Below are positions 29,399 through 48,845 of a stretch of 57,296 bases of DNA, piece after piece (within the stretch, counting starts at the first letter, position 1; each line of letters opens with the position of its first letter). Made by a program: the position numbers and the translations under genes. The stretch comes from an uncultured Myxococcales bacterium (GTDB lineage: Bacteria; Myxococcota_A; UBA9042): NCBI GenBank assembly GCA_903842345.1, contig CAIMLR010000024.1, positions 1 to 57,296 on the forward strand. The letters are read 5' to 3'. Below the pieces are notes generated by a model, which ran no database searches, had not been told where the DNA came from, and worked only from the letters and a program-made list of their open reading frames with translations.

Positions 29399-30769
29399 CT
29401 AGCCCTGGGCGACCGGCGTCGTCATCCGCTCCAGCCGATAGCGAATCTGGTCGCGCGAGAGCCCCAGCAACTGTGCGGCGCGCGTCTGGTTGCCTGACGT
29501 CCGGGCCAGCGCCTGGCGCACGAGCTCATCTTGCAGCGCGTCGAGATCGATGCCGTCTTCTGGCAGCACGATCGTCTGGGCGTGCACGTGCGTGGTCCGC
29601 GTCGACGCCAGCAAGAAATCGTCCAAGGACAACTCCTCGGACTCCGCCAGCAGCACCGCGCGCTCAACGGCGTTGCGCAGTTCGCGGACGTTGCCCGGCC
29701 ACGGCTGCTGCGCCAGGACGTGCATCGCCGTCGGGCTGACCGCGCGCACGGGCTTTTTGAGCTCCTGCGAAAAACGCCGCAGGAAGAAATCAATCAGCGC
29801 CTGCACGTCACCCGGACGGTCGCGCAGCGGCGGCAGTTCCACGGGCAGCACGCGCAGGCGGTAGAACAAGTCCTCGCGGAAACGGCCAGCGGTCACTTCA
29901 GCATGCAGATCGCGATTGGTCGCCGCGATGACCCGCACGTCGATGGACACGTCCTGCGCGCCGCCCACCCGCTTGAAGGTCTTCTCCTCCAGAAAGCGCA
30001 GCACTTTGGACTGCAGCCCCAGCGACATCTCGCCGATTTCATCGAGAAAGACCGTCCCGCCTGCCGCCAGCTCCAGGAGCCCCTTCTTCTGCGCCCGCGC
30101 ATCCGTGAACGCGCCCTTCTCGTGGCCAAACAGCTCGCTTTCCAGCAGCGTCTCCTGCAGGGCGGAGCACGTGATGTTCATGAACGGCTTGTTGGCCCGC
30201 GCGCTGCCGTAGTGGATGACCTTGGCGGCGAGGTCCTTGCCCGTGCCGCTCTCGCCGGTCAGCAGGACCGTCGAACCCGCCGTGCGCGCGATCTTTCCCA
30301 GCAATTGCCGCACGTTCTGGATCGCGTGCGACTGCCCGACAATGGTCTCAGGCCCCCACGGCGAACTCACCACCTCGCGCAGCACCTGCACTTCCCGGCG
30401 CAAATGCATCGTTTCCAGCGCCTGATGGATCTTCACCGCCAGCTCGTCCAGGTTCACCGGCTTGGTCAGGTAGTGCCACGCGCCGGCCTTCATCGCCTCA
30501 ACCGCGGCCTCGACGCTGTTGGTACCCGTCAACATGATGACGATGACATCGGGCGCGGCGAGTCGAATCGCCGGCAAGGCGTCCAGACCGTTGCCGTCAG
30601 GCAAGCCATTGTCCAGCAGCATGAGGTCGACCCCCTGCTGCAACAGCGCCATCGCGTCCGCAAGCGTGCCCGCCTCGACGACTTCGAAGCCCTCTTGCCG
30701 CAAACGCTCGCGAATTGACCATCGAATCAACCGCTCGTCATCGACCACCAGAATCTTTGAAGCTTCCAT
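29399..30769 (-). CDS. NtrC-family sigma-54-dependent response regulator
   Basis: The ATG at 30769 has AGGAAG seven bases upstream; an earlier in-frame ATG lacks this. The 456-residue product has three parts. The receiver (1-120) has Asp10/Asp11, phosphoacceptor Asp53 and Lys103. The AAA+ domain (~143-375) has Walker A GESGTGKD (172-179), Walker B FLDEIG and sensor/arginine segments FREDLFYRLRVLPV. A Fis-type helix-turn-helix closes the protein (NQTRAAQLLGLSRDQIRYRL). The sigma-54-contacting loop reads GAFTDA rather than GAFTGA; this variant is known among natural activators, so the protein is presumed active. It lies 38 bases after the single-domain receiver gene and opposes the histidine kinase gene. 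Local sigma-54-type promoters at 34071 and 26087 are candidate targets. Confidence 0.95.
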   Translation of the reverse strand: MEASKILVVDDERLIRWSIRERLRQEGFEVVEAGTLADAMALLQQGVDLMLLDNGLPDGNGLDALPAIRLAAPDVIVIMLTGTNSVEAAVEAMKAGAWHYLTKPVNLDELAVKIHQALETMHLRREVQVLREVVSSPWGPETIVGQSHAIQNVRQLLGKIARTAGSTVLLTGESGTGKDLAAKVIHYGSARANKPFMNITCSALQETLLESELFGHEKGAFTDARAQKKGLLELAAGGTVFLDEIGEMSLGLQSKVLRFLEEKTFKRVGGAQDVSIDVRVIAATNRDLHAEVTAGRFREDLFYRLRVLPVELPPLRDRPGDVQALIDFFLRRFSQELKKPVRAVSPTAMHVLAQQPWPGNVRELRNAVERAVLLAESEELSLDDFLLASTRTTHVHAQTIVLPEDGIDLDALQDELVRQALARTSGNQTRAAQLLGLSRDQIRYRLERMTTPVAQG

Positions 30770-30807
30770 GGCGATACTTCCTGTTTGCATCTTCCCCAAG
30801 CCCTAAT

Positions 30808-31215
30808 CTAGGACGCAGCCGCGCGCTGCGTCAGGCGGACCACGTGATCCAGATCAAATGGTTTATGGACCAGGGCATAGGCGCCCGCCGACGTCACCTC
30901 CGCTTCCGTCATTTCCGTCCCGTGCGCCGTCATCACGATCACGCGCGTCCTGGGCCGCACTGCGTGAAACTCGGCGAGGAGGTCGATGCCATTGCCATCA
31001 GGCAGGCGCAGGTCCAGCAGCACAAGGTCGGTCGGGCGCAGGAACGCATCGCGCGCCGTGGCCAAATCCGCCGCTTCCACGACCATGAATCCCACGGAAG
31101 ACAGCCGCGCGCGCAGGGCCCAGCGGATGAGGAACTCGTCATCCACGATCAAGACCGAATGAGACAGCGGCGCGTGCGCAAACAACGGCAGGGCGTGGGG
31201 GGATGACGGGCTCAT
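30808..31215 (-). CDS. Single-domain response regulator (CheY-like receiver)
   Basis: The 135-residue protein is a receiver with no output domain: acidic pair Asp25/Asp26, phosphoacceptor Asp68, Thr96 and Lys118 are all present. Its VLIVDDEFLIRW segment is very like ILVVDDERLIRW of the downstream NtrC-type protein, suggesting the two receivers arose by duplication. It is first in a unit with that activator and diverges from the PAS histidine kinase. It could act as a phosphate sink or relay between kinase and activator. An ATG at 31215 is the only reasonable start, although the GGAGG lies 13 bases upstream, further than usual. Confidence 0.93.
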   Translation of the reverse strand: MSPSSPHALPLFAHAPLSHSVLIVDDEFLIRWALRARLSSVGFMVVEAADLATARDAFLRPTDLVLLDLRLPDGNGIDLLAEFHAVRPRTRVIVMTAHGTEMTEAEVTSAGAYALVHKPFDLDHVVRLTQRAAAS

Positions 31216-31247: not shown

Positions 31248-31249
31248 CG

Positions 31250-31274
31250 TGACACCCGCAAGCGGCAGGTGTCA
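31250..31274. promoter_or_regulatory. Operator-like inverted repeat in the kinase/regulator divergent gap
   Basis: TGACACC-N11-GGTGTCA is a perfect 7-bp dyad, with an inner CGC/GCG pairing. It covers about -43 to -18 of the minus-strand promoter and lies 47 bases before the histidine kinase ATG. It is well placed to be bound by a regulator controlling both directions, possibly a product of this module. Confidence 0.55.
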
Positions 31275-31320
31275 AATAGTCCACGCTCATGCAGTCCTTC
31301 CACGACTGCGGCACAACGGC

Positions 31321-32760
31321 ATGACCGACCCCGTTCCGCTGACGGAAAGACTGCAAAAGCTCGGCTTGCCGTTCACGGTGCTCAGCGCCGTCTTCGTTGC
31401 CGACACACTGCACGCGACGCTGTTGACGCCCGCCCTGCTCTACCCAATTGCCGTCCTCGTGACCGTCGACATCGACGATCCGGCCGTGCCGCGGCTGATC
31501 GCAGCGGTCGGCTCGGCGCTCACGGTCATCGGGCGCTTCGTGCCGCGGCCGGAGGCGCTGCCCACCATCGATCTGGCCAACCGGGTGATGAGCGTGGTTG
31601 CGTTGTGGGCGACCGCCGCGCTCGTCCTCCACATGAGCCGATTCCAGCGCAAGCTGCGCAAGGGCGAGGCGATCGCTGAACAGGCGCAGGTGCTGCGTGT
31701 CCAGACTCAGCAGCGGCTGGAACTGTCCTTGCACGAACTGCATGACATGAAGTTTGCCCTGGATCAGTCGTGCATCGTGTCGATCACCGATGTGACCGGC
31801 GCGATCACGTACGTCAATGAACGGTTCTGCGACGTCAGCGGCTACGCGCGCGACGAGTTGCTCGGCCAGAACCACCGGATGATCAACTCCGGGTTGCACA
31901 CCCCGGACTTCTTCGCGACGCTTTGGAACGTCGTCAGCCACGGCGGAATCTGGCGCGGCGAAGTACGCAACCGCAGCAAGTACAACACGTTCTGGTGGGC
32001 AGACACGACCATCGTGCCGGTCCTGGAGGCAGACGGCACACCCAAGCAGTACGTCGCCATTCGCAGCAACATCACCGCGCGCAAAGACGTGGAGGAACGG
32101 CTGCGCGACCAAGCGTCGCTGGCGAAACTGGGGGCGATGGCGTCGGTCATCGCGCATGAGGTCCGCAACCCGCTCGCCGGCGTGTCGGGCGCGATGCAGG
32201 TCCTGCGCAGCCGGATGGCGGCGGAATCGGAAGAGTGGATGATCATCGGCGACGTGCTGGAGCGGGTCGACCAGTTGAACGCCTCGCTGAGCGACCTGCT
32301 GATCTACGCGCGGCCGCAGCCCCTGCACAAGGCGCCGACCAACTTGCGGCAGTTGCTGGACGACGTCGTCGATGCCAGCGCTGCCGATCCGCGGTTCGCT
32401 GGCGTCGCAATCACCGCGGAAGGCAGCAACTCGATGTGCACGGTTGACGCCAACCTGGTGCGCGGCGCGGTGTTCAATCTGGCCTTGAACGCCGCCCAAG
32501 CGCTCAAGGGCCGCGGCCGCATCCGCCTGATCAAGGAATGCAACGGCCACAACTGCACGATCCGCGTGCAGGACGATGGCCCCGGCATCGACAAAGCGGT
32601 GCTCGAGCGCATGTTCGAGCCCTTCTTCACAACCAAGTCGCGCGGCACGGGCCTCGGATTGTCGATCGTGAAACGCGTCGTCGAACAACATGGCGGCGAG
32701 ATCCGGGTCGAATGCCCAGCGACCGGCGGGACAGTCGTCCACCTTGTTTTTCCACTCTAG
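31321..32760 (+). CDS. Membrane PAS sensor histidine kinase
   Basis: The ATG at 31321 is the likely start; a GTG at 31249 is also in frame, and neither has a strong Shine-Dalgarno. The 479-residue protein has about three hydrophobic N-terminal segments (~17-50, 57-73, 88-105), then a coiled linker. A PAS domain spans about 145-255 (FALDQSCIVSITDVTG, YVNERFCDVSGYARDELLG). The dimerisation/phosphoacceptor box is IAHEVRNPLAG with His279. The HATPase domain has the N-box NLALNAAQAL, DDGPGI and GTGLGLSIV. It should phosphorylate the divergently encoded receiver and/or the NtrC-type activator (inference from adjacency). The input signal is unknown. The gene ends 5 bases before a convergent gene. 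Confidence 0.94.
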   Translation: MTDPVPLTERLQKLGLPFTVLSAVFVADTLHATLLTPALLYPIAVLVTVDIDDPAVPRLIAAVGSALTVIGRFVPRPEALPTIDLANRVMSVVALWATAALVLHMSRFQRKLRKGEAIAEQAQVLRVQTQQRLELSLHELHDMKFALDQSCIVSITDVTGAITYVNERFCDVSGYARDELLGQNHRMINSGLHTPDFFATLWNVVSHGGIWRGEVRNRSKYNTFWWADTTIVPVLEADGTPKQYVAIRSNITARKDVEERLRDQASLAKLGAMASVIAHEVRNPLAGVSGAMQVLRSRMAAESEEWMIIGDVLERVDQLNASLSDLLIYARPQPLHKAPTNLRQLLDDVVDASAADPRFAGVAITAEGSNSMCTVDANLVRGAVFNLALNAAQALKGRGRIRLIKECNGHNCTIRVQDDGPGIDKAVLERMFEPFFTTKSRGTGLGLSIVKRVVEQHGGEIRVECPATGGTVVHLVFPL

Positions 32761-32765
32761 TGGGT

Positions 32766-33704
32766 TCACAGGGAATGCGCCGGTCGTGCCTGCTGGACTG
32801 GCGGCGTGTACGGCAGCGTCACCAACGTGCTGTGCCGGTGCGCGTCGAGGAAACGGTCAAGCCGCTCCGGCGTGCCCAAATCCGTCCAGCCACACGGCTC
32901 GGTCGGGGACACCCACAGCCACTCCGGCAACTGTTCCAGCACGTCGCGCGAGAAATCAACGCTCGGAATGTGGTCATAAAACGCCGTCAGGTAGTCCAGC
33001 TCAAAACCGCGGGCGTTGTGCAATTGCGCCACCGCCAGGGCGAACAACAGCGGCTGTGCGCGGGCGACGAGCGCCAATAACGCGTCGAGGCGCGCGGTCA
33101 GGATGAAGCTCGACCACAACGCGCCGGCGTCGCGCAGCTGTTCCGCCACCTCCGCCGACGGCTTCTCGACGAAGCGCTCCACGCGATACAGGCTGCCATC
33201 GTGGTGCAGCGCCGCGCCCGGGACAATCCAGCCGTAGCTGTCATCGGCGCCATCGGGCTCCATGCCCAGAATGACGACGCGGCCCTGACGGGCTTCCTCC
33301 AGGCAGCGGCGCAGGCGATAGCGAAAAGCCGCCTCGTCGAGGATGCCGTGATCCGCGGGCACCAGCACGACCAGCGCGTCCGGATCGATCCGGCGAATGT
33401 GCATCAGTGCCAGCAGCGCGCCCATCGCCGTGCCGCGATCCGCCGGTTGCACAAGCACGTTCTCGTCCGGCACGTCGTGGCGCTGCGTGCGCCAATGCTC
33501 CTCGTGCTGCGCCGCCACGACCAGGACGGTGCGCTCCGGGGCGACCATCGGCTCCAGACGGTCCAAGGTCGACTCCAGCAGCGAGCGCTCGCCCCACAGC
33601 GTGCAGTACTGCTTGGGCACGATCACCCCGTCGCCGCGCCGCGTCCGCATGGCCAGCCGCGAGCCGACGCCGCCCGCGAGAACGACCGCCCATACATCGT
33701 GCAT
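32766..33704 (-). CDS. Mannose-1-phosphate guanylyltransferase-type nucleotidyltransferase
   Basis: The ATG at 33704, with AGGAAAG upstream, gives MHDVWAVVLAGGVGSRL, the nucleotide-binding signature of sugar-phosphate nucleotidyltransferases. PKQYCTLWGERSLLESTLDR and VLVPADHGI fit mannose-1-phosphate guanylyltransferases. The length of 312 residues means the C-terminal isomerase domain of long ManC proteins is absent. The product would be GDP-mannose, the precursor for dolichyl-like or polyprenyl mannose donors used by GT22 enzymes such as the one at 17614-19245. The long frame upstream of the chosen ATG has no similarity and belongs to the antisense of the giant Ig-repeat gene. Confidence 0.87.
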   Translation of the reverse strand: MHDVWAVVLAGGVGSRLAMRTRRGDGVIVPKQYCTLWGERSLLESTLDRLEPMVAPERTVLVVAAQHEEHWRTQRHDVPDENVLVQPADRGTAMGALLALMHIRRIDPDALVVLVPADHGILDEAAFRYRLRRCLEEARQGRVVILGMEPDGADDSYGWIVPGAALHHDGSLYRVERFVEKPSAEVAEQLRDAGALWSSFILTARLDALLALVARAQPLLFALAVAQLHNARGFELDYLTAFYDHIPSVDFSRDVLEQLPEWLWVSPTEPCGWTDLGTPERLDRFLDAHRHSTLVTLPYTPPVQQARPAHSL

Positions 33705-33874
33705 CTTTCCTGCCTGACTTCGCGATTTGAACATCTGTCCCCCATGTGGTGTGCCTCGGGCCTTGAATCCGGGCATCGGAGGTGTATCCACGTTTCGTGC
33801 CAAGTCGCGGACTTTTTGGATCTGCTGATTTTGCTGACGGTTTGGATTGGGCCCGGTCAGGGCACCTGTCTGAC

Positions 33875-33981
33875 GTGGGGAATTTTCCCCACCCGCCTTG
33901 GCAGAATCCGCGAAACCGCGAGAGGGCGGGCACTTCGCCGCAAGTGTGGGTTTTCCACCGTCGGATCGGGGCAGAATCCGC
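33875..33981. promoter_or_regulatory. Twin upstream activator-like repeats
   Basis: Two copies of a palindrome-plus-box module are spaced about 70 bp apart. The first is GTGGGGAA-TT-TTCCCCAC (33875-33892) followed by GGCAGAATCCGC (33900-33911). The second is the looser GTGGGTTTTCCAC (33946-33958) followed by the identical GGCAGAATCCGC (33970-33981). They lie about 115-220 bases upstream of the predicted sigma-54 start, where enhancer-binding proteins usually bind. The 489-base gap 33705-34193 contains no convincing gene. Confidence 0.6.
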
Positions 33982-34070
33982 ATCGGCCCGCCGCCCTGAC
34001 CGGGTCCGCGCCGCATGAAATCGACGATTATCTTTGTATTGGCTCGGTTTTTTCCGCCAGATCGACGACT

Positions 34071-34086
34071 CGGCACGCGCCTTGCA
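34071..34086 (+). promoter_or_regulatory. Near-consensus sigma-54 promoter for the giant Ig-repeat lipoprotein
   Basis: CGGCACG-CGCC-TTGCA matches the -24/-12 consensus TGGCACG-N4-TTGCW at every position but the first. The predicted start near 34097 gives a leader of about 97 bases before the GGAGG and ATG at 34194. Confidence 0.7.
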
Positions 34087-34134
34087 ATGAGGGCCGCCAG
34101 CATCGCGATCCGCGACGCTTGGCTGTGGCATTGC

Positions 34135-34178
34135 CGCCTTCCCCGTTTGGAAGGCGTCGATGTTGTTGTCCTTTTTTT
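34135..34178 (+). other. Leader hairpin followed by a T-run
   Basis: CGCCTTCC and GGAAGGCG pair around CCGTTT; seven Ts follow about 15 bases later, then the GGAGG ribosome site. It may be a weak attenuator or a leader stabiliser; the gap before the T-run argues against a standard terminator. Confidence 0.35.
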
Positions 34179-34193
34179 GCCCGGAGGCTTGTC

Positions 34194-37100
34194 ATGTATC
34201 GTTCCTGGAAGCAACTCCTGCGTCGGTTGACAATGGCGCTGACGTTGCTTGTGCCGTTGGCACTGCAATCCTGCGGTACCAGTGGCACGAGTACTACTAC
34301 AGATGTCGTGGCGATCCGGCTCTCTCCGGACCACGCGACGCTGCATCCTGGGGACAAACAGACGTTTGCCATCCAGCAGGTCTGGGCCGATGGCTCGGAG
34401 ACCGCTGGAGTGGTGACCGATGCAACCTGGGCTTCCAGTGACACTTCCATCGCGACCGTTGACGCCAAGGGCGTCGCGGCGATGCTGAAGGTCGGCACCG
34501 CAACCATCACCGCGAACCTCGCCGGCAAGATCGCCACCGCGGCGCTGCAGGTTCAGGACAAGCAGATTCTGGCCTTGCACGTCACGCCGACGCTCGCCAC
34601 TCTGGCGGTTGGCGGCCATCAAGCGTTGGTGGCTACCGCCGTTTATGAAGATGGCTCGACAGGTGACGTGACCAACCAGTGCCTGTGGACGAGCAGCGAC
34701 AGCACCATCGTCTCCATCGATCAGACCGGCAACACGACCGCCATCAAGGGCGGCCAAGTGACGATGACGGCCAAGTACGGCACCGTGAGCGACGTTGCGG
34801 CGGTGACCGTCACGCAAAAGAGCATGGTCGCGCTCGTGCTGGAACCGGCGCATCAGGATGTGACGGTCGGCGGCCAAGTGCAGATCAACGCCTATGCCAT
34901 CTACGATTTTGGTCCGCGCGTCGACGTGACGACGCAGGCAACCTGGAAGTCCTACCAGACGGATATCGCGACGGTGAACGCGTCGGGCAAAGTCACCGGC
35001 GTGAAGGAAGGCACTGTCAACATCGGCGCGCAGCTGGCCGGTATTGAGGCGACGTGCACGGTGGACGTGCGCGCCAAGAAGCTGATCGCGCTTCAGGTGA
35101 CACCCGCGCTCGCAACGGTGGCAATCGGCGGAACCCAAGCCTACCTCGCGACTGGCAACTACGATGACGGCTCGACAGCGGATGTGACGGCCCAGACACA
35201 ATGGTCGTCGTCAGACGCGAGCGCCGTCTCGGTGGATGCCACCGGCCAAGCCAAGGGCTTGGTCGGCGGCAAGGCGGCGGTCATTCAGGCGACGTTTGGC
35301 GGCAAGACCGGCGCGGGCTCAATGGTCGTTTCGTCGGCAACCGTGGCGTCGATCGCGCTGACGCCGGTTGAAGCCAAGCTGGCCAAGGGCCAGGCCAAGA
35401 ACTTCCAGGCAGTCGCAACGATGACGGACGGCGCGCTGCTCGACATCACCTATCAGGCGATTTGGACCTCGACCAATCCGTCCGTTGCGACGGTGAACGC
35501 GCAAGGCCGCGTCATCGGCGTCTCCAAGGGCGATTGCTCGATTCGTGCGACGATGAACGGCGTGATCGGCAGCGCCGGCGTGGCCGTCACCAACGCGACG
35601 GTCACGGACGTGATCGTGACCCCGTCCATCGCGACCTCGTTCGTCGGTGGCCCGGTCATCGCCTTCAAGGCGAAGGCAGACTTTACCGACGCGACGTACG
35701 GCGACGTGACAACGCAGGCCACGTGGCTGTCTTCAGACCCGAAAGTCATGACGATCGACGCGCAGGGCAAGGGCGTCACGCTCGCGCAGGGCGTCGTGCA
35801 GATCAGCGCCAAGTACCAGGGCGTCACGTCCAACTATGCGCTCCTCGCCGTCGGTCCCGCCGTCGTCTCGACGCTGGAGATCGTCCCGCCGTCCGCGACG
35901 CTCGCCAAGGGCACCTACCAGGCATTCAAGGCGCTCGCCACGCTGAGCGATGGCACGACGAGCGACCTGAGTTCGTCCGTGTCGTGGCAATGCACGGATC
36001 TGACGATCGCGACCGTGAGCGGCAACGGCATCGTGACGGCGCTGAAGGCGGGCAATGCGACGCTCATCGCGACGTTCCAGGGCAAGACGGCGCAGTCGGC
36101 GCTGACGATCTCGCCGGCGACGCTGCAAAGCCTTGCGATTACGCCCACGTCAGGCGCGCCCCTGCAGGTGAGCGGCACGCGCCAGTTCATGGCCAAGGGC
36201 ACCTACACGGACAACTCCGTGCAGGACCTGACGGCTCAGGTGAACTGGTCGTCCAGCGATCCCACCAAGCTGGCGATTTCCAACGCCGCGGACAACCACG
36301 GCCTGGCAACGGCGCTGACTGCGGGCAACGTGACCGTCACCGCGTCGATTGGCACGATCGCCGCGCCGGCCGTTCCCGTCATCGTTCAGGCCAAGTCGCT
36401 GGTGGCCATTCAGGTCACGCCGGCGCTCGCCACGGTCGCGATCAACGGCACGCAAGCCTTCATCGCGATGGCCAATTTTGACGACGGCTCGAACCTCGAC
36501 GTCACGCAGCTCGCGACCTGGTCGTCGGCGGACAACGCCGCGGTGACGGTTGACGTGCACGGTATCGCCAAGGGTCTGGTCGGCGGCAAAGCCGTGCTCA
36601 TCCAGGCGATCTACCAGAACAAGCAGGGCTCCGCTTCACTCGTCGTTTCGGCTGCGACCGTCGCGTCCGTGGCGCTGAACCCGGCGCAGGTTTCGCTGGC
36701 CAAGGGTCAAGGCCAAGTCTTCCAAGCGACCGCGACGATGACGGATGGCACGCTCCTCGACGTCAGCTCGCAGGCCACGTGGGCCACGAGCGATCCGGCG
36801 ATCCTGACCGTCGACAAGCTGGGCCACGTGCTCGGCGCGGGCGTGGGCAAGGCGGATCTGACCGCGGTGTTTGGCGGCCAGACCGGCACGGCACCCGTCA
36901 CCGTGACTGACGCGATTTGCACCGGCGTGCAGGTGACGCCGGGCGCGTCCACGACGTTTGTCGGCGGTCCGGTCGTTGCCTACACGGCCACGGCCAGCTT
37001 CAGCGACTTGACGTCCGCTGACGTGACGACGCAGGCCACGTGGGCGAGTTCTGACCCGACGATCGCGACCATCAACGGCCAGGGTCAGGCGACCGCGCTC

Positions 37101-40100
37101 ACGACCGGGTCGGTGCAGATTACCGCGACCTATCAGGGGCTGACTTCGGCCGCGGCAATGATGGCGGTCGGTCCGGCTGCTGTGGTTGCGCTGGAAGTGC
37201 TGCCGCCGTCCGCGACGATCGCCAAGGGCACCAATCAGGCGTTCCAGGCGCTGGCGACCCTCAGCGATGGCAACAAGGTCGACCTCAGCTCGTCGGTGAG
37301 CTGGCAGTCGTCCAACCTCGCGCTGGCGACGATTTCGTCCGCCGGTATCGCCTCGGGCCTGCTGCCCGGCGCTGTGACGCTGACGGCGACGTTCCAGGGC
37401 AAGTATGCCACGTCGACCCTCACGGTCTCGCCCGCGACCCTGACGAGCCTCGACATCGTGCCGTCGCTCGCCTCGCCGCTGCCGCTCAACGCCACGCGCC
37501 CGTACAAGGCGATTGGCACGTACAGCGACAAGACGACGCAGGACGTGACCGAGCAGGTGATTTGGCAGACCAGCAACGCCACACAGTTGGCGGTCTCCAA
37601 CGCCAGCGGCAGCCGCGGCCTCGTCACGGCGTTGGCAGAAGGCACGCCAACGCTCTGGTGCTCCGCGGGCAACATCGTCGCCCCGCAGGTCCAGATCACC
37701 ATCAACAGCGGCATTCTGCTGTCGTCGATCACGCTTTGGCCGTCCAGCTCGACGCTCGTCGCCGGGCAGGCGCAGAAGTTCGTGGCAACCGGCCACTACA
37801 GCGACGGCAGCGCGTTTGACGTCACCACCAGCGCCATCTGGGACGTGGTCGACGGCAACGGCGCCAACATCGCCGGCTTCGCGAGCGTCTCCAACGGCCT
37901 CGTTGCGGCCCTGCAGTCCACGGCCAACGTGCCGGGCGGCCAGGTCCGCATCAAGGCGCACATCGGCAGCGTCTCGACGTTCGCCCCGCTCGTCATCAAA
38001 GCCAGCGTCATCACCGGCATGACCGTGACCTGCGAAGCGCCGCTCAGCTGCTTGCCCAGTGGCATCGGCTACCAGGTCGGTTGCGTCGCGATGGCCAATT
38101 TTGACGACAACACCACCGGCGACGTCACGACGACGGCGACGTGGTCCTCCACCGCTTCTGGCATCGCGACGACGCCTGTCGTTATCGATGGCCGCGCCTG
38201 GACCACGATCGTCGGCAACGGCGCCGCGACCCTGACCGCGGCTCAAGGCGGCAAGACCTCGGCGACTTCTGCGGCTTCCACGGTCAACGGTGCGGCACTC
38301 AACCTGAACACCATCACGGTGAGCCCGCCTGCCACGACGCGCGCCAAGGGCTTCACCCAGCAGTACCAGGCGTCCGGCTTGTTCTCCGGTGGCACGTGCA
38401 GCGCCGTCACCCGCGACGTCACGCGGCTCGTCACATGGTCCAGCAGCATCCCGGCGGTCGCGCCCATCAGCAACGCGCCCGGCAGCAAGGGCCTCGCCAC
38501 GGCTTCGACGCCGGGCACCACGACAATCGCCGCGATGTTGGGCCTCGTGTCCGGCTCGGCGCAGCTCGTGGTCTCGACGGCGTGCCTGCAGCAGGTCCGC
38601 ATTGAGCAGGTCAACCCGCTGTGGCCGTCGCAGATTCAGGTGCCGCTGTCCGTCGTCGGCTACTACAGCGACGCGCCGACGACGCCTGTTCCGGTCCTGC
38701 CCGGCACGCTGGGTGCCTGGTCGTCCAGCAACGTCAATCCGAGTACGTGGATGCTCACGATCGGCACGACTTCCCCGGGTGCCCTGACCTTCTCCGTGCT
38801 GACGGGCGCCTGCAGCCAGGCGGTCTCGGACACCACGACGGTCTCCCTCGACGGCACCGCGTTGCCGACCGCGCTTTCCGTCATGCCCAACAACGCGCAG
38901 ATCACCAAGGGCGCCTATCAGGACTACACCGCGACCGCGACGTATGAACTGTATGGCGCTTTCAACGTGACGGCGTACACCGGCTGGAGCGTCGCGCCGC
39001 AGCTTGGCCTGAGTTGGGGTCCGCAGGCGGCGGGCACCTTGGAGCGTTTCCAGCATCAGGGCACCACGTCCGGCACGACGGAAATCGCCGCGGCGTACAA
39101 GAATCGCACCGCGACGGCTGGCTTGCTGATCAGCGGTTCGACGGTGACCAAGGTGGAGATCATCGAGACCCAGCCGACGCTGCCGCAGCTGGGCGCGCCG
39201 GTTGGCTTGAACCTCCGCTTCCGCGCGCGGGTGACCTGGTCGGACGGGACGTACGCGGACAATCCGTCGGGCTTGGCGTTCTTCAGTTCCGATCCCGCCA
39301 AGCTGGCGTTTCAGTCCGGCAACCTCGCGACGACGCTTGCGCCGTCCGCCGGCCTCGACCCGACAGTGACCGCGACGTACGGCGACAAGTCCAGTGTGCC
39401 GCTCGCCGTCAAGATCTCGACGGCCACGCTCATCGACTTGCAGTTCAGCAGCCCGAGTGGCGGTTCCATGCCGCGCAACGCGGTCATGCCGCTGACCATC
39501 ACCGGCCTCTACAGCGACGGCTCGAGCTTTGACGTCTCCGCCCTGGTTTCGGCCGGCAGCGGCAACGCCACGGTCGTGCAGGTGGCGATTTCGGCGTCGG
39601 GCTGCCTGCTCACGTCGTATTCGACCACCACGTCGCAGCCCGTGAAGGTCAGCTTCATGAAGGACAGTGTGACCCGGCACTTCTACATCAACGTCACGGG
39701 CGCGTGCCTCGCGGCGCTCAACCTGACGCCTGCGGTCGGTTCCATGGCGATTGGTCAGCAAGTGGACTTCATCGCCAAGGCAACGGACACCGGCGGCAGC
39801 GACCTGAACGTCTCGCACTTGGCCGGCGTCGCGTGGTCGGGGAGCAACGCAACCCTGTTGAACCTCGGCAACGTGGCCGGTCCGGCGCGGCGCTATCGCG
39901 CGTTGGCCAAGGGCACGAGCCCGCTGACCGTGACGTTCACCAGCCAGGACGTGTGCGCGGGTGGCGACGTCACCAACCACACGCTGACGACCACCGCCTC
40001 GGTTGACGTGACGGACGCCACGGTGGTGTCCGTGCAGATCCAGCCGCAGCCGACCTTTGGGCAGACTGCGCGCCGCGTGCCGCTGGGTCAGGCCGTGAAG

Positions 40101-42329
40101 TTCCGGGCGATGGCGACGCTGACCGACGGTCAAGTTGTCGACGTGTCGAGCGGTTCAGGCACGACGTGGAGCACCCAGAAGCCGGCGTTCGCCACGGTGA
40201 GCGGCAATGGCCTCCTGTATGCGCAAAGCGCGGGCCTCACCATCCTCACCGCGACGACCGCCAACGGCAAGACCACGGATCTGCTTGTGGAAGTGCAGAA
40301 TTGCGGCGCGCCCGGCGTGACGCTGGCGACGGCGGGCACGGGCAAGCTGCCCATCGGCACTTCTCGCCTGTACACGGCGACGGCGCTCTATGGTTCGCCG
40401 GCGGGTTGCACGGCCAGCGGGTCGGAGCGCACGTTTGACGTGACCGGTTCCGCGCAATTCGCCTCGACGGATTCGACGATCGTGTCGATTTCCAACGGCG
40501 GCGATTCGGCGGGCAAGGCGCTCGCGCTGGCGGCGGGCACCGTGCAGATTTCCGCGTACTACCTCGGCGTCCTGTCGAACTCCCTGAGTTTGCAGGCCGT
40601 GGCAGTGACGCTCGAACACCTGTACATCAATGCGCCGTCTGGCACGTTCAAGAATGGCACGTTCGACATCACGGTTTCGGCGCAGTACACCGATGGCGCC
40701 TCTGGCCACTGGTTCATGGCGCCGCCTGCGGTGGTGTGGAACATCTTTGACCCGACCGTGATCTCCATTGCCAACGGTACGCTGACCGGCCTCAAGCAGG
40801 GCGCGACGCAGTACTTCGCGCAGATGGGGCCGATTGTGTCCAACACCCTGGGCGTGAACATCTCCAGCGGTTGCGTCAAGGCCGTGCAGCTCAACGTCCC
40901 GGCAAGCGCCGTCACGTGGCCGACCGGCGTGCCGTTCGTGATGAATGCGACCTGCACCACGTCTGACGACAGCGTCATGGCGTGTCACCCGGATTACACG
41001 TCCGATGATCCCGACCACGTCATCGACGAGCATCCGAACTTCCTCACCCTTGGCTTTGGTCACGTTGCCTATGGCGCCACGCCTGGCAAGACTGCGACGC
41101 TGCGCGCCACGATTCCGCCGTCACATGGCGGTTGCATTGGCGCACCGGTGCAGAGTTCGTCCGTGGTGACAGTGGGTTCCGCCGTTCTCGCGTCCCTGGA
41201 TCTGGCACCGAACGCGATCTCGATCGCGCGCGGTTTGGACGCCAGTTTCGCCACGACGGGCAACTTCGCAGCGGGCACGGGCGCGGGCGCGTACGACGTG
41301 ACAAGCCTCGCGGCGTACGTTTCCAACAACCCGAGCATCGGTTGGGCCTTGAATGACGGTCACGGCACCGTGCGCGCTGGCGGCACCGACGGCACGGCGC
41401 TCATCTCCGTCGCCTACATGGGCGTCACCAGCAAGTTCGCGTCGTTGACCGTGAGCGGCAAGATCCCGGACGCGATCTACGTCCTGGCCGAGCCGAATCT
41501 CATCGGCGGCAGCGCTGCCAACGCGACCTACCCGATCGGCGGTTACCGGCTGCAGTTGTCAGCCGTTGCCCACTACTCGGACAACTCGTGGGGCGACGTC
41601 AGTCCGTCCGTCACCTGGTCCCTCAAGTCACCCGCGCTCGCGGATGCGGCGATCGACCACAACGGCATGTACGCGACGAGCAGCGTGGCGGGCGATCAGA
41701 TCGTCGTCGCGACGCTGGATACCTTGACGCGGGAGTTCACGGTTCACAACGTGACGGGCACGCTGGTGAATCTGACGGTGACCAATTCCTCCGGCGGCGC
41801 GCCGGCAACGACGGTGCCCAAGGGTTTGACGGAGCAATACATGGCGACGTTCAAGCTCTCGGGTAGCACGGTCGCCGGTCCGTACTGGGGTGGCAGCAAC
41901 TTTGTCTGGTCCACCGGTGACAGTGCGCTGGCTTCGGTCGCGATCAGTGGCACCTACCACGACGTCGCGACGTTCCATGCGCTTGACCTTGGCACGACGA
42001 GCCTCTCGGCCAAGGTTGGCGTGAGCACGAGCGGCCCGCTGGCCATCAAGATTACCGACACCGTTCCGGTCGGCTTGACGTGTCAGCCGGATTCCACCGC
42101 GGTCACAGCCGGCAGTCGGATTCAATTCCGGGCCATCGCCACCATGGCGGATGCCAGCACCAACGACGTCAGCGCGTCGGTGGACTGGAATCACCCGGTG
42201 ACGGCGATCCTGTCTATTGACCCGGTTGGCTTGGCAACCGCCTTGATGGCAGGCGATGTCGCGATGAAGCCGCAATTGGGCGGCATCGTCTCGTCCAACG
42301 CCTGTGCGGTGACGGTGACCGTGCCGTAG
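34194..42329 (+). CDS. Giant Ig-like (Big_2) repeat lipoprotein, 2711 aa
   Basis: The ATG at 34194 follows GGAGG with six-base spacing. The signal ends PLALQSC, with lipidated Cys27 followed by Gly, then a short Ser/Thr linker. The rest is about 29 tandem Ig-like units of roughly 90 residues, each beginning with a V-x-V-x-P-x-x-A-T-x-x-x-G strand and containing W-x-S-S-D-x-x-V/I-A-T-V, typical of bacterial Big_2/invasin-like domains. Units 4-8 and 9-13 form a duplicated five-domain block; later units are more divergent and gain scattered cysteines. There is no recognisable catalytic or C-terminal anchoring domain, so the protein is probably a long surface stalk tethered by its N-terminal lipid. 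Transcription from the sigma-54 promoter at 34071 and an efficient terminator at 42352 define it as a single-gene unit. Confidence 0.93.
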   Translation: MYRSWKQLLRRLTMALTLLVPLALQSCGTSGTSTTTDVVAIRLSPDHATLHPGDKQTFAIQQVWADGSETAGVVTDATWASSDTSIATVDAKGVAAMLKVGTATITANLAGKIATAALQVQDKQILALHVTPTLATLAVGGHQALVATAVYEDGSTGDVTNQCLWTSSDSTIVSIDQTGNTTAIKGGQVTMTAKYGTVSDVAAVTVTQKSMVALVLEPAHQDVTVGGQVQINAYAIYDFGPRVDVTTQATWKSYQTDIATVNASGKVTGVKEGTVNIGAQLAGIEATCTVDVRAKKLIALQVTPALATVAIGGTQAYLATGNYDDGSTADVTAQTQWSSSDASAVSVDATGQAKGLVGGKAAVIQATFGGKTGAGSMVVSSATVASIALTPVEAKLAKGQAKNFQAVATMTDGALLDITYQAIWTSTNPSVATVNAQGRVIGVSKGDCSIRATMNGVIGSAGVAVTNATVTDVIVTPSIATSFVGGPVIAFKAKADFTDATYGDVTTQATWLSSDPKVMTIDAQGKGVTLAQGVVQISAKYQGVTSNYALLAVGPAVVSTLEIVPPSATLAKGTYQAFKALATLSDGTTSDLSSSVSWQCTDLTIATVSGNGIVTALKAGNATLIATFQGKTAQSALTISPATLQSLAITPTSGAPLQVSGTRQFMAKGTYTDNSVQDLTAQVNWSSSDPTKLAISNAADNHGLATALTAGNVTVTASIGTIAAPAVPVIVQAKSLVAIQVTPALATVAINGTQAFIAMANFDDGSNLDVTQLATWSSADNAAVTVDVHGIAKGLVGGKAVLIQAIYQNKQGSASLVVSAATVASVALNPAQVSLAKGQGQVFQATATMTDGTLLDVSSQATWATSDPAILTVDKLGHVLGAGVGKADLTAVFGGQTGTAPVTVTDAICTGVQVTPGASTTFVGGPVVAYTATASFSDLTSADVTTQATWASSDPTIATINGQGQATALTTGSVQITATYQGLTSAAAMMAVGPAAVVALEVLPPSATIAKGTNQAFQALATLSDGNKVDLSSSVSWQSSNLALATISSAGIASGLLPGAVTLTATFQGKYATSTLTVSPATLTSLDIVPSLASPLPLNATRPYKAIGTYSDKTTQDVTEQVIWQTSNATQLAVSNASGSRGLVTALAEGTPTLWCSAGNIVAPQVQITINSGILLSSITLWPSSSTLVAGQAQKFVATGHYSDGSAFDVTTSAIWDVVDGNGANIAGFASVSNGLVAALQSTANVPGGQVRIKAHIGSVSTFAPLVIKASVITGMTVTCEAPLSCLPSGIGYQVGCVAMANFDDNTTGDVTTTATWSSTASGIATTPVVIDGRAWTTIVGNGAATLTAAQGGKTSATSAASTVNGAALNLNTITVSPPATTRAKGFTQQYQASGLFSGGTCSAVTRDVTRLVTWSSSIPAVAPISNAPGSKGLATASTPGTTTIAAMLGLVSGSAQLVVSTACLQQVRIEQVNPLWPSQIQVPLSVVGYYSDAPTTPVPVLPGTLGAWSSSNVNPSTWMLTIGTTSPGALTFSVLTGACSQAVSDTTTVSLDGTALPTALSVMPNNAQITKGAYQDYTATATYELYGAFNVTAYTGWSVAPQLGLSWGPQAAGTLERFQHQGTTSGTTEIAAAYKNRTATAGLLISGSTVTKVEIIETQPTLPQLGAPVGLNLRFRARVTWSDGTYADNPSGLAFFSSDPAKLAFQSGNLATTLAPSAGLDPTVTATYGDKSSVPLAVKISTATLIDLQFSSPSGGSMPRNAVMPLTITGLYSDGSSFDVSALVSAGSGNATVVQVAISASGCLLTSYSTTTSQPVKVSFMKDSVTRHFYINVTGACLAALNLTPAVGSMAIGQQVDFIAKATDTGGSDLNVSHLAGVAWSGSNATLLNLGNVAGPARRYRALAKGTSPLTVTFTSQDVCAGGDVTNHTLTTTASVDVTDATVVSVQIQPQPTFGQTARRVPLGQAVKFRAMATLTDGQVVDVSSGSGTTWSTQKPAFATVSGNGLLYAQSAGLTILTATTANGKTTDLLVEVQNCGAPGVTLATAGTGKLPIGTSRLYTATALYGSPAGCTASGSERTFDVTGSAQFASTDSTIVSISNGGDSAGKALALAAGTVQISAYYLGVLSNSLSLQAVAVTLEHLYINAPSGTFKNGTFDITVSAQYTDGASGHWFMAPPAVVWNIFDPTVISIANGTLTGLKQGATQYFAQMGPIVSNTLGVNISSGCVKAVQLNVPASAVTWPTGVPFVMNATCTTSDDSVMACHPDYTSDDPDHVIDEHPNFLTLGFGHVAYGATPGKTATLRATIPPSHGGCIGAPVQSSSVVTVGSAVLASLDLAPNAISIARGLDASFATTGNFAAGTGAGAYDVTSLAAYVSNNPSIGWALNDGHGTVRAGGTDGTALISVAYMGVTSKFASLTVSGKIPDAIYVLAEPNLIGGSAANATYPIGGYRLQLSAVAHYSDNSWGDVSPSVTWSLKSPALADAAIDHNGMYATSSVAGDQIVVATLDTLTREFTVHNVTGTLVNLTVTNSSGGAPATTVPKGLTEQYMATFKLSGSTVAGPYWGGSNFVWSTGDSALASVAISGTYHDVATFHALDLGTTSLSAKVGVSTSGPLAIKITDTVPVGLTCQPDSTAVTAGSRIQFRAIATMADASTNDVSASVDWNHPVTAILSIDPVGLATALMAGDVAMKPQLGGIVSSNACAVTVTVP
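35082..37713 (+). repeat. Duplicated block of five Ig-like domains within the giant lipoprotein
   Basis: Block A (35082-36398, residues 297-735) and block B (36399-37713) have the same order of five distinctive domains. The openings correspond one to one: ALATVAIGG/ALATVAING, KLAKGQA/SLAKGQG, TSFVGGPV/TTFVGGPV, PPSATLAKGT/PPSATIAKGT, and a fifth with a shared SLAITP/SLDIVP start and IAAP/IVAP end. The unit is 1317 versus about 1315 bp. Confidence 0.85.
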
Positions 42330-47048: not shown

Positions 47049-48845
47049 CTACAGCGAATTGGCGGCGACAAAGGTGTAGCCTGCCGCCTTGACGCCCGTG
47101 ACGATCGCCTTCAACTGGGACACCGGGTTGTACGTGTGGAAGTAAAAACTCGCCACGCCGTCGCGGATGACCAGGTTGTTTTGCGCCGTCGCGATGATGT
47201 TCGCAGCCAGGCGCGGCGGGTTGTTGTTCGACGCATCCGGCTCGTAGGACCCGAGGTTCTCCGGCAGGATCTTCCAGCCATAGATGTCCGTCACCGTGTA
47301 CGGGTAGAAGACGCCGACCATGTTCTTGAGGTTGGACGCGGTGAATCCGAGGTCGCCGCTGAAGTAGAGACCACGGTGATACGCGGTCGCGAATTTGGTC
47401 TTGATCGCGCGGGAATCCGTCGGCGAGCCGGCGTAGTGCGGGTATTCAAAGACCGTCGGCTGCGGCAGCCCCGCCGCCGTAATCGCCGCCTGACCGGAGG
47501 TGATGCGCGCCAACGCCCAAGTCGAACTGTCGTTCGGCACGGCCCCATCGTAGATCACGTTGTTGGTCGCGGCGTCCACGTGCGCGAGGAAGAACTCAAA
47601 GTCATCGGCGGTCACACCGGAGTAAGGATTTTTCTGCGCACCGTACTGATGCGTGTACCCGTGCATGATCAGCGTGCCCCCTTTGGTCAACGCGTACTTG
47701 ACGGCGCTGAGCATGCTCGGGCTGTTGGTCCACTTGATCGTCTCCGCTTTGCCGTTGTTGTAGTAGCCCTTCGGGTCGGTGTAGAGCGGGATCAGCGCGA
47801 TGCTGAACGGCACGGAAGCGCTGGCGAGGTAGTCTACGGACGCGCGAAAGGCGACGGGGTCATCGGCCGGGCTGATGTCCTCCAGGCGCACGAGGGCGCG
47901 GTGCCGCGCGGGCGTCGTCGGCGCGAGCGCATCGAACAGCAAGTCGCAGTAGATGAGGTAGCGATCGTCTGAGCTGATGTACGAGAACGGGTTCTCCGCG
48001 ATGTAGGTCAAGTTGAGCGAGCGCACCGCCCACGGGAACGTCGTGCCGTTGGCGCGCACGGCCGTCGCCAAAGTCGTGACCTTGCTCGCGGTGAACGGGT
48101 TCAACTGCAGGATGCCGCTGCCGTTTGTCGCGTCGCGGGTCAGCGTGTGGCCCTTGTACGTCACCTTGGCGACCGACGTCGTGTCAAACGCCCACGGGTT
48201 GTAGCCGTAATTGGTCACGAACGTGCTGGAGCGGTTGGCCAACTGCCAGATGTTGTCGGCGATCCACACAACGGGGACGGTGCCCGCGAGGGTGTCGTCG
48301 AGAAACGCGACGGGGAGCGGCTCGTCGTAGGTCGAGCCGACGTAGATGACCGCCTTGAAGTTGGCCATCTCGCCCGCCTTGTAGGTCAAGACCGGCTTGA
48401 CCGTGGTCGGGCCAAAGTGGCTGGCGAGGTTGACGGCGGCGATGCCATACAACTCGCCCAGCCAGCCCCACGTGCTTGTGGAGTCATAGAGGACCAGCGC
48501 GCCGGCCGGGACCGTGAGATATTGCGTCTTGAGCGCTGTCTCCGCCGGGCGATTGTCCTCACCGCGCTGTTGCGGCACGGGCACCAACTCGCCGGGGGTC
48601 ACGATGCGGCCGCCGAAATCGGCCGGGAACCGGTTGATGCTCGCCCGAGCGGAGTCGCCCAGGAAGGTCACGGCAATGGGCTCCGCCTTCGCGGCACCCT
48701 CCCCGGTTCCTTGCTGCACCGCTTCCTGCAAGCCGACCTGCTCACTGGCCGGCGCCGTCCGCGCAGTGGGAGACTCTGAAGTCACACACCCCGCCACGGC
48801 GACGCCAAGTGCCACGCAACACACCACCAGGAATTGCTTTCTCAT
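47049..48845 (-). CDS. DUF2334-type polysaccharide-deacetylase-like lipoprotein (598 aa)
   Basis: GAGGGCGAG precedes the ATG at 48845. The signal peptide ends VAVAGC, with lipidated Cys20 followed by Val. Residues from about 320 hold the DUF2334 pattern: LVRLEDISPADD (acidic metal pair), IALIPLYTDPKG, and the histidines of GTLIMHGYTHQYG, followed by FEYPHYAGSP. DUF2334 proteins share the NodB-like barrel of polysaccharide deacetylases, so hydrolysis of N-acetyl groups on an envelope or exopolysaccharide is plausible. The N-terminal 300 residues resemble a flavodoxin-like/glutamine-amidotransferase-like carbohydrate module but were not assigned. The protein should be anchored facing the periplasm or outside. 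Confidence 0.88.
   Translation of the reverse strand: MRKQFLVVCCVALGVAVAGCVTSESPTARTAPASEQVGLQEAVQQGTGEGAAKAEPIAVTFLGDSARASINRFPADFGGRIVTPGELVPVPQQRGEDNRPAETALKTQYLTVPAGALVLYDSTSTWGWLGELYGIAAVNLASHFGPTTVKPVLTYKAGEMANFKAVIYVGSTYDEPLPVAFLDDTLAGTVPVVWIADNIWQLANRSSTFVTNYGYNPWAFDTTSVAKVTYKGHTLTRDATNGSGILQLNPFTASKVTTLATAVRANGTTFPWAVRSLNLTYIAENPFSYISSDDRYLIYCDLLFDALAPTTPARHRALVRLEDISPADDPVAFRASVDYLASASVPFSIALIPLYTDPKGYYNNGKAETIKWTNSPSMLSAVKYALTKGGTLIMHGYTHQYGAQKNPYSGVTADDFEFFLAHVDAATNNVIYDGAVPNDSSTWALARITSGQAAITAAGLPQPTVFEYPHYAGSPTDSRAIKTKFATAYHRGLYFSGDLGFTASNLKNMVGVFYPYTVTDIYGWKILPENLGSYEPDASNNNPPRLAANIIATAQNNLVIRDGVASFYFHTYNPVSQLKAIVTGVKAAGYTFVAANSL

Follow-up and report, generated by a model that had tools for sequence, protein, structure and literature searches.

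Several described systems bear on the locus analyzed here, which lies in a window of 57,296 nucleotides (the whole stretch of DNA that was analyzed) from an uncultured Myxococcales bacterium. DctD and the other NtrC-type group I activators resemble its candidate activator in their receiver-AAA+-Fis architecture and in acting from two or more upstream sites. The Rhizobium DctD site TGTGCGgaaatCCGCACA has a TGCGG half-site in common with the palindrome found here (PMC11077940), although the half-sites of the latter stand 2 bp further apart and the targets differ. In the PrsK/PrsR system, RpoN-dependent PEP-CTERM surface protein genes are likewise under two-component sigma-54 control (PMC9850573), whereas the target in our case is a Big_2 lipoprotein, and both regulators score below the family cut-offs, with 396 bits against 502.6 for the activator as PrsR (TIGR02915) and 78.2 bits against 300 for the kinase as PrsK (TIGR02916). 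Membership of the activator in AtoC was also rejected (NF008469; 432 bits, cut-off 714). The sigma-54 regulons of Desulfovibrio, mapped by binding and comparative genomics, share palindromic sites upstream of sigma-54 promoters and targets at the cell exterior, but the activators, motifs and targets described here are different (PMC3333781, PMC4641369). More broadly, control of the bacterial exterior by sigma-54 is a known theme (PMC3162934), to which the present targets in activated sugars, PEP and lipoproteins correspond; the likeness is to the general theme only, and an Hsp20/RpoH-like arm falls outside it. No described Myxococcota regulon of such make-up was found in the literature searched.

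The locus comprises the following genes and elements, in the order of their coordinates.

29399-30799, minus strand: NtrC-type activator (receiver, AAA+ domain with GAFTDA, Fis-type HTH), candidate reader of sites I-IV
30808-31215, minus strand: receiver-only response regulator
31249-32760, plus strand: PAS histidine kinase, whose start may be 31321
32766-33704, minus strand: sugar nucleotidyltransferase, mannose-1-phosphate guanylyltransferase-like, divergent from the giant gene
33785-33803, minus strand: conserved element TTGGCACGAAACGTGGATA upstream of the nucleotidyltransferase gene, 15 of 19 positions invariant
33875-33892, no strand: candidate activator site I, palindrome GTGGGGAATTTTCCCCAC, 18 bp with a central mismatch, the strongest upstream site
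33897-33912, no strand: candidate activator site II, degenerate; it contains the first GGCAGAATCCGC copy and lies 21 bp from site I, and its AATCC core does not vary among four species
33945-33960, no strand: candidate activator site III, a weak palindrome (TGTGGGTTTTCCACCG) with counterparts at the matching position in the other species
33967-33982, no strand: candidate activator site IV, CGGGGCAGAATCCGCA; it contains the second GGCAGAATCCGC copy and lies 22 bp from site III
34048-34053, plus strand: T-tract with a TTTT core that does not vary among four species, about 20 bp before the -24 element
34071-34086, plus strand: sigma-54 -24/-12 element CGGCACGCGCCTTGCA
34194-42329, plus strand: giant gene for a predicted lipoprotein of 2711 aa, which has 10 Big_2 matches (Pfam)

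We consider it probable that the giant gene is transcribed from a sigma-54 promoter by the NtrC-type activator encoded at 29399-30799, acting on two tandem site pairs, and that the gene belongs to a regulon. We infer binding, phosphorelay, signal and expression to be arranged as follows. A signal would be sensed by the kinase (31249-32760), which would phosphorylate the activator either directly or via the receiver-only protein. The activator would then assemble on the two tandem pairs (consensus TGSGGAANNTTCCSCA, the members of a pair being 21-22 bp apart), which lie about 90-195 bp before the -24 element, and its AAA+ ATPase ring would open the sigma-54 complex, with transcription predicted to start near 34097. 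The giant lipoprotein would thus be made as one regulon member alongside ppsA, a second sugar nucleotidyltransferase, Hsp20, a cutinase-like lipoprotein and others.

The promoter element (CGGCACG-CGCC-TTGCA), read directly from the sequence, differs from TGGCACGNNNNTTGCA at a single position, the first T, just as the preliminary description had claimed. The GG at -24 and the GC at -12 stand ten bases apart, as a sigma-54 element requires, and 107 bp, close to the 110 bases first estimated, separate the element from the ATG at 34194, which is preceded by CGGAGG. Sites I-IV lie at about -195, -174, -126 and -104 relative to the -24 element. Their positions match in all four species compared (the window's genome and the congeners G001, G003 and G004), and their strength differs among these species. 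The exact 12-mer GGCAGAATCCGC occurs twice, at 33900-33911 and 33970-33981, and each copy is the weaker partner of a palindrome 21-22 bp away. Two modules of palindrome and 12-mer, 70 bp apart, had been proposed; both 12-mer copies are indeed exact and spaced by 70 bp, but the second palindrome is weak. When scored with a matrix built only from other promoters and compared with 500 shuffles, site I reached 27.4 bits against a shuffle maximum of 19.0, whereas site IV (11.4 bits) stayed under the 13.3 bits that mark the 99% point of the shuffles. Sites II and III were weak (1.3 bits for site III). Site I is therefore the one site supported by its score alone, and the case for sites II-IV comes from position and conservation. 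As an independent regulon motif, GGCAGAATCCGC was rejected, its four other copies in the genome not being at sigma-54 promoters.

The activator, the receiver and the kinase are all encoded nearby, within the 5 kb originally described, with two corrections to that reading: the kinase gene is on the plus strand, and the nucleotidyltransferase gene separates it from the giant-gene promoter. The order of activator, receiver, kinase, nucleotidyltransferase and giant gene recurs in G001, G003 and G004, with the activator of G003 split between two contig ends. The activator has the NtrC-family architecture of a receiver, a sigma-54 interaction AAA+ domain and a Fis-type HTH, and it retains Walker A, the receiver aspartate and the Thr of GAFT; the receiver aspartates and the kinase H-box are likewise present. 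Where GAFTGA is expected in the contact loop, the ten orthologues all carry GAFTDA and two fragments carry GSFTDA, and GAFTDA is among the variants thought to keep activity (PMC4641369). These orthologues, at 58-82% identity, come from ten genomes, and the fragments from two more. An rpoN gene was found in 5/5 congeners.

Palindrome counts are higher in genomes with the activator than in those without it (Mann-Whitney P 0.0026, ignoring the kinship of the genomes), and in the congener G002 the activator, the giant gene and ppsA are all missing, as is any palindrome excess. Next to the activator/kinase genes of G009, G015 and G017 are palindromes in tandem and perfect sigma-54 elements that lead into an RpoH-like gene. 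The association has exceptions, since no genome-wide palindrome excess was present in G009, G011, G013, G014 or G017 despite an activator or a fragment of one, and G008 has a small excess without an activator. The recurrence of the palindrome before sigma-54 promoters, the joint absences in G002 and the palindromes beside orthologous regulators make the protein encoded at 29399-30799 the likely reader of sites I-IV. The earlier inference that the nearby regulators act at this promoter thus gains support from synteny, from the co-occurrence of sites and activator and from those same palindromes.

The alternative that survives best, though we regard it as unlikely, is that the promoter depends on sigma-54 but its sites are read by another activator, such as EBP-B, while the neighboring activator controls something else. 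The genome holds 44 matches to the activator, and in G010 (L180, position 6889) and G020 (L178, position 8433) palindromes occur about 100 bp past the gene for EBP-B, another NtrC-type activator; no clear sigma-54 element was found at these EBP-B-adjacent palindromes. G002, however, has EBP-B and yet no palindrome excess, the recognition helix of EBP-B differs, and in several genera the palindromes adjoin the orthologous activator/kinase genes. Because of its presence in G002 and its different recognition helix, EBP-B was rejected as the reader in the window's genus, where such a role is unlikely.

Reading by the neighboring activator, our preferred account, also agrees with the wider distribution of the palindrome. 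The motif was initially derived from the giant-gene promoter and was afterwards found at unrelated genes, generalizing to the consensus TGSGGAANNTTCCSCA. Allowing up to two mismatches, TGGGGAANTTTCCCCA is enriched in the window's genome (7+5 against 2+0 in the control), and paired sites are commonly 20-23 bp apart, for example before the Hsp20, second nucleotidyltransferase and RpoH-like genes. Among the palindromes counted in four congeners, 15/37 have a sigma-54 element within 40-230 bp, and 13/35 still do when the giant gene is excluded, against 1.15% of random positions; these tallies include one site twice and take the Hsp20 pair as two. The genome-wide statistics come from pattern searches and individual sequence stretches, and all of the genomes compared are fragmented assemblies. 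Matches of the form TGGGGAATATTGCGCA in several genomes, which are probably 16S rRNA, were set aside. A sigma-54 promoter with a site precedes ppsA in all four activator-bearing congeners, and a palindrome with a sigma-54 promoter precedes the second sugar nucleotidyltransferase and cutinase-like lipoprotein genes in several species, as well as the genes for Hsp20, RcpC/CpaB and a cytochrome. The circuit had been described as dedicated to the giant gene; that term is not supported, because at least six other gene families have the same sites before their sigma-54 promoters and the giant gene thus probably belongs to a regulon.

It is very improbable, in our judgment, that the sites serve a regulator outside the sigma-54 system, such as a repressor, with the promoter activated from elsewhere: 22 of the 37 palindromes have no nearby sigma-54 element, but the linkage of palindromes to sigma-54 elements at enhancer distance is strong and the tandem spacing corresponds to two helical turns. 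That the -24/-12 match is fortuitous and the giant gene is served by some other promoter is scarcely credible, for although sites with up to two mismatches occur at close to background frequency across the genome (338+318, compared with 300+307 in the reversed control), which makes the element weak evidence by itself, its 12 consensus positions are all invariant across the four congeneric genomes, where 22% of the surrounding intergenic columns are, a perfect sigma-54 element precedes the giant homologue of G011, and no sigma-70-type site was found in the promoter region. The preliminary description had proposed a search for the same module upstream of orthologues, and this promoter alignment, in which the module is kept, confirms the original observation as real and conserved at the level of sequence.

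The giant protein is exactly 2711 aa long in all four species, aligns without gaps and is 75-78% identical to the window's protein in the others. It had been called an Ig stalk. Its 10 Big_2 stretches and its lipoprotein-like N-terminus (LVPLALQSC) agree with a surface protein of that kind, but the stalk itself is only conjectural, and a predicted structure for the C-terminal 622 aa (pLDDT 30.5) was not used. The homologue in G011 is 51% identical and divergent from a second activator copy, and for the homologue in G013 no sigma-54 element was found in the short upstream stretch that remains on the contig.

Judged from annotation, PEP synthase, the sugar nucleotidyltransferases and the lipoproteins fit the cell-exterior theme of sigma-54, and the Hsp20 and RpoH-like genes suggest a stress arm. 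We tentatively propose, at somewhat less than even odds, an undescribed myxobacterial sigma-54 regulon with one AtoC/NtrC-like reader, which would join envelope building (the giant Ig lipoprotein, sugar nucleotides and PEP synthase) to a stress arm (Hsp20 and, in other genera, the RpoH-like sigma factor), would let sigma-54 feed a heat-shock-type sigma factor, and would keep the activator/kinase core constant while its targets are rewired from one genus to another. The results as a whole lead from an isolated promoter match to a regulon that can be tested, with a defined binding motif and a candidate activator, in an uncultured family of myxobacteria. They also predict the genes that are expressed along with the giant adhesin-like lipoprotein.

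Four other genomes (L154, L163/L167, L168 and L170), including G011, have an RpoH-like gene next to the activator/kinase genes, and in three of them it is accompanied by tandem palindromes and a perfect sigma-54 element. A cascade from sigma-54 to a heat-shock-type sigma factor is possible in other genera.

Upstream of the nucleotidyltransferase gene, the conserved element TTGGCACGAAACGTGGATA belongs to a pattern, TTGGCACGAAWCGTGRAT, that has a -24-like element and the inverted repeat CACGAWWCGTG and has no C at -12. Five copies precede nucleotidyltransferase genes, one of them at a different locus, before a relocated nucleotidyltransferase gene in G001 (C33, L079). This element is possibly an unusual divergent sigma-54 promoter that shares the activator sites.

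A DUF2334 gene elsewhere in the window (47049-48731, minus strand) has a paralogue of 63% identity in G000 (C34, about 27510; L122, L252), with a tandem pair of the same palindromes upstream and without a clear sigma-54 element. Other sigma-54 promoters of the window's genome (L015, L018, L022, L057; L016; L025, L029) carry different repeated upstream motifs, namely GTGAGAC repeats, TGCCGAA-N2-TTCGGCA and TGTAGGAAA-like sequences, which suggests several more activator-specific regulons in this genome. Finally, the contig ends C49 and C50 (L067, L069) carry two near-identical sigma-54 promoters, each leading into the same ORF start (MNTRRNHIQLLPTYV), which represent either a duplicated gene or an assembly repeat.
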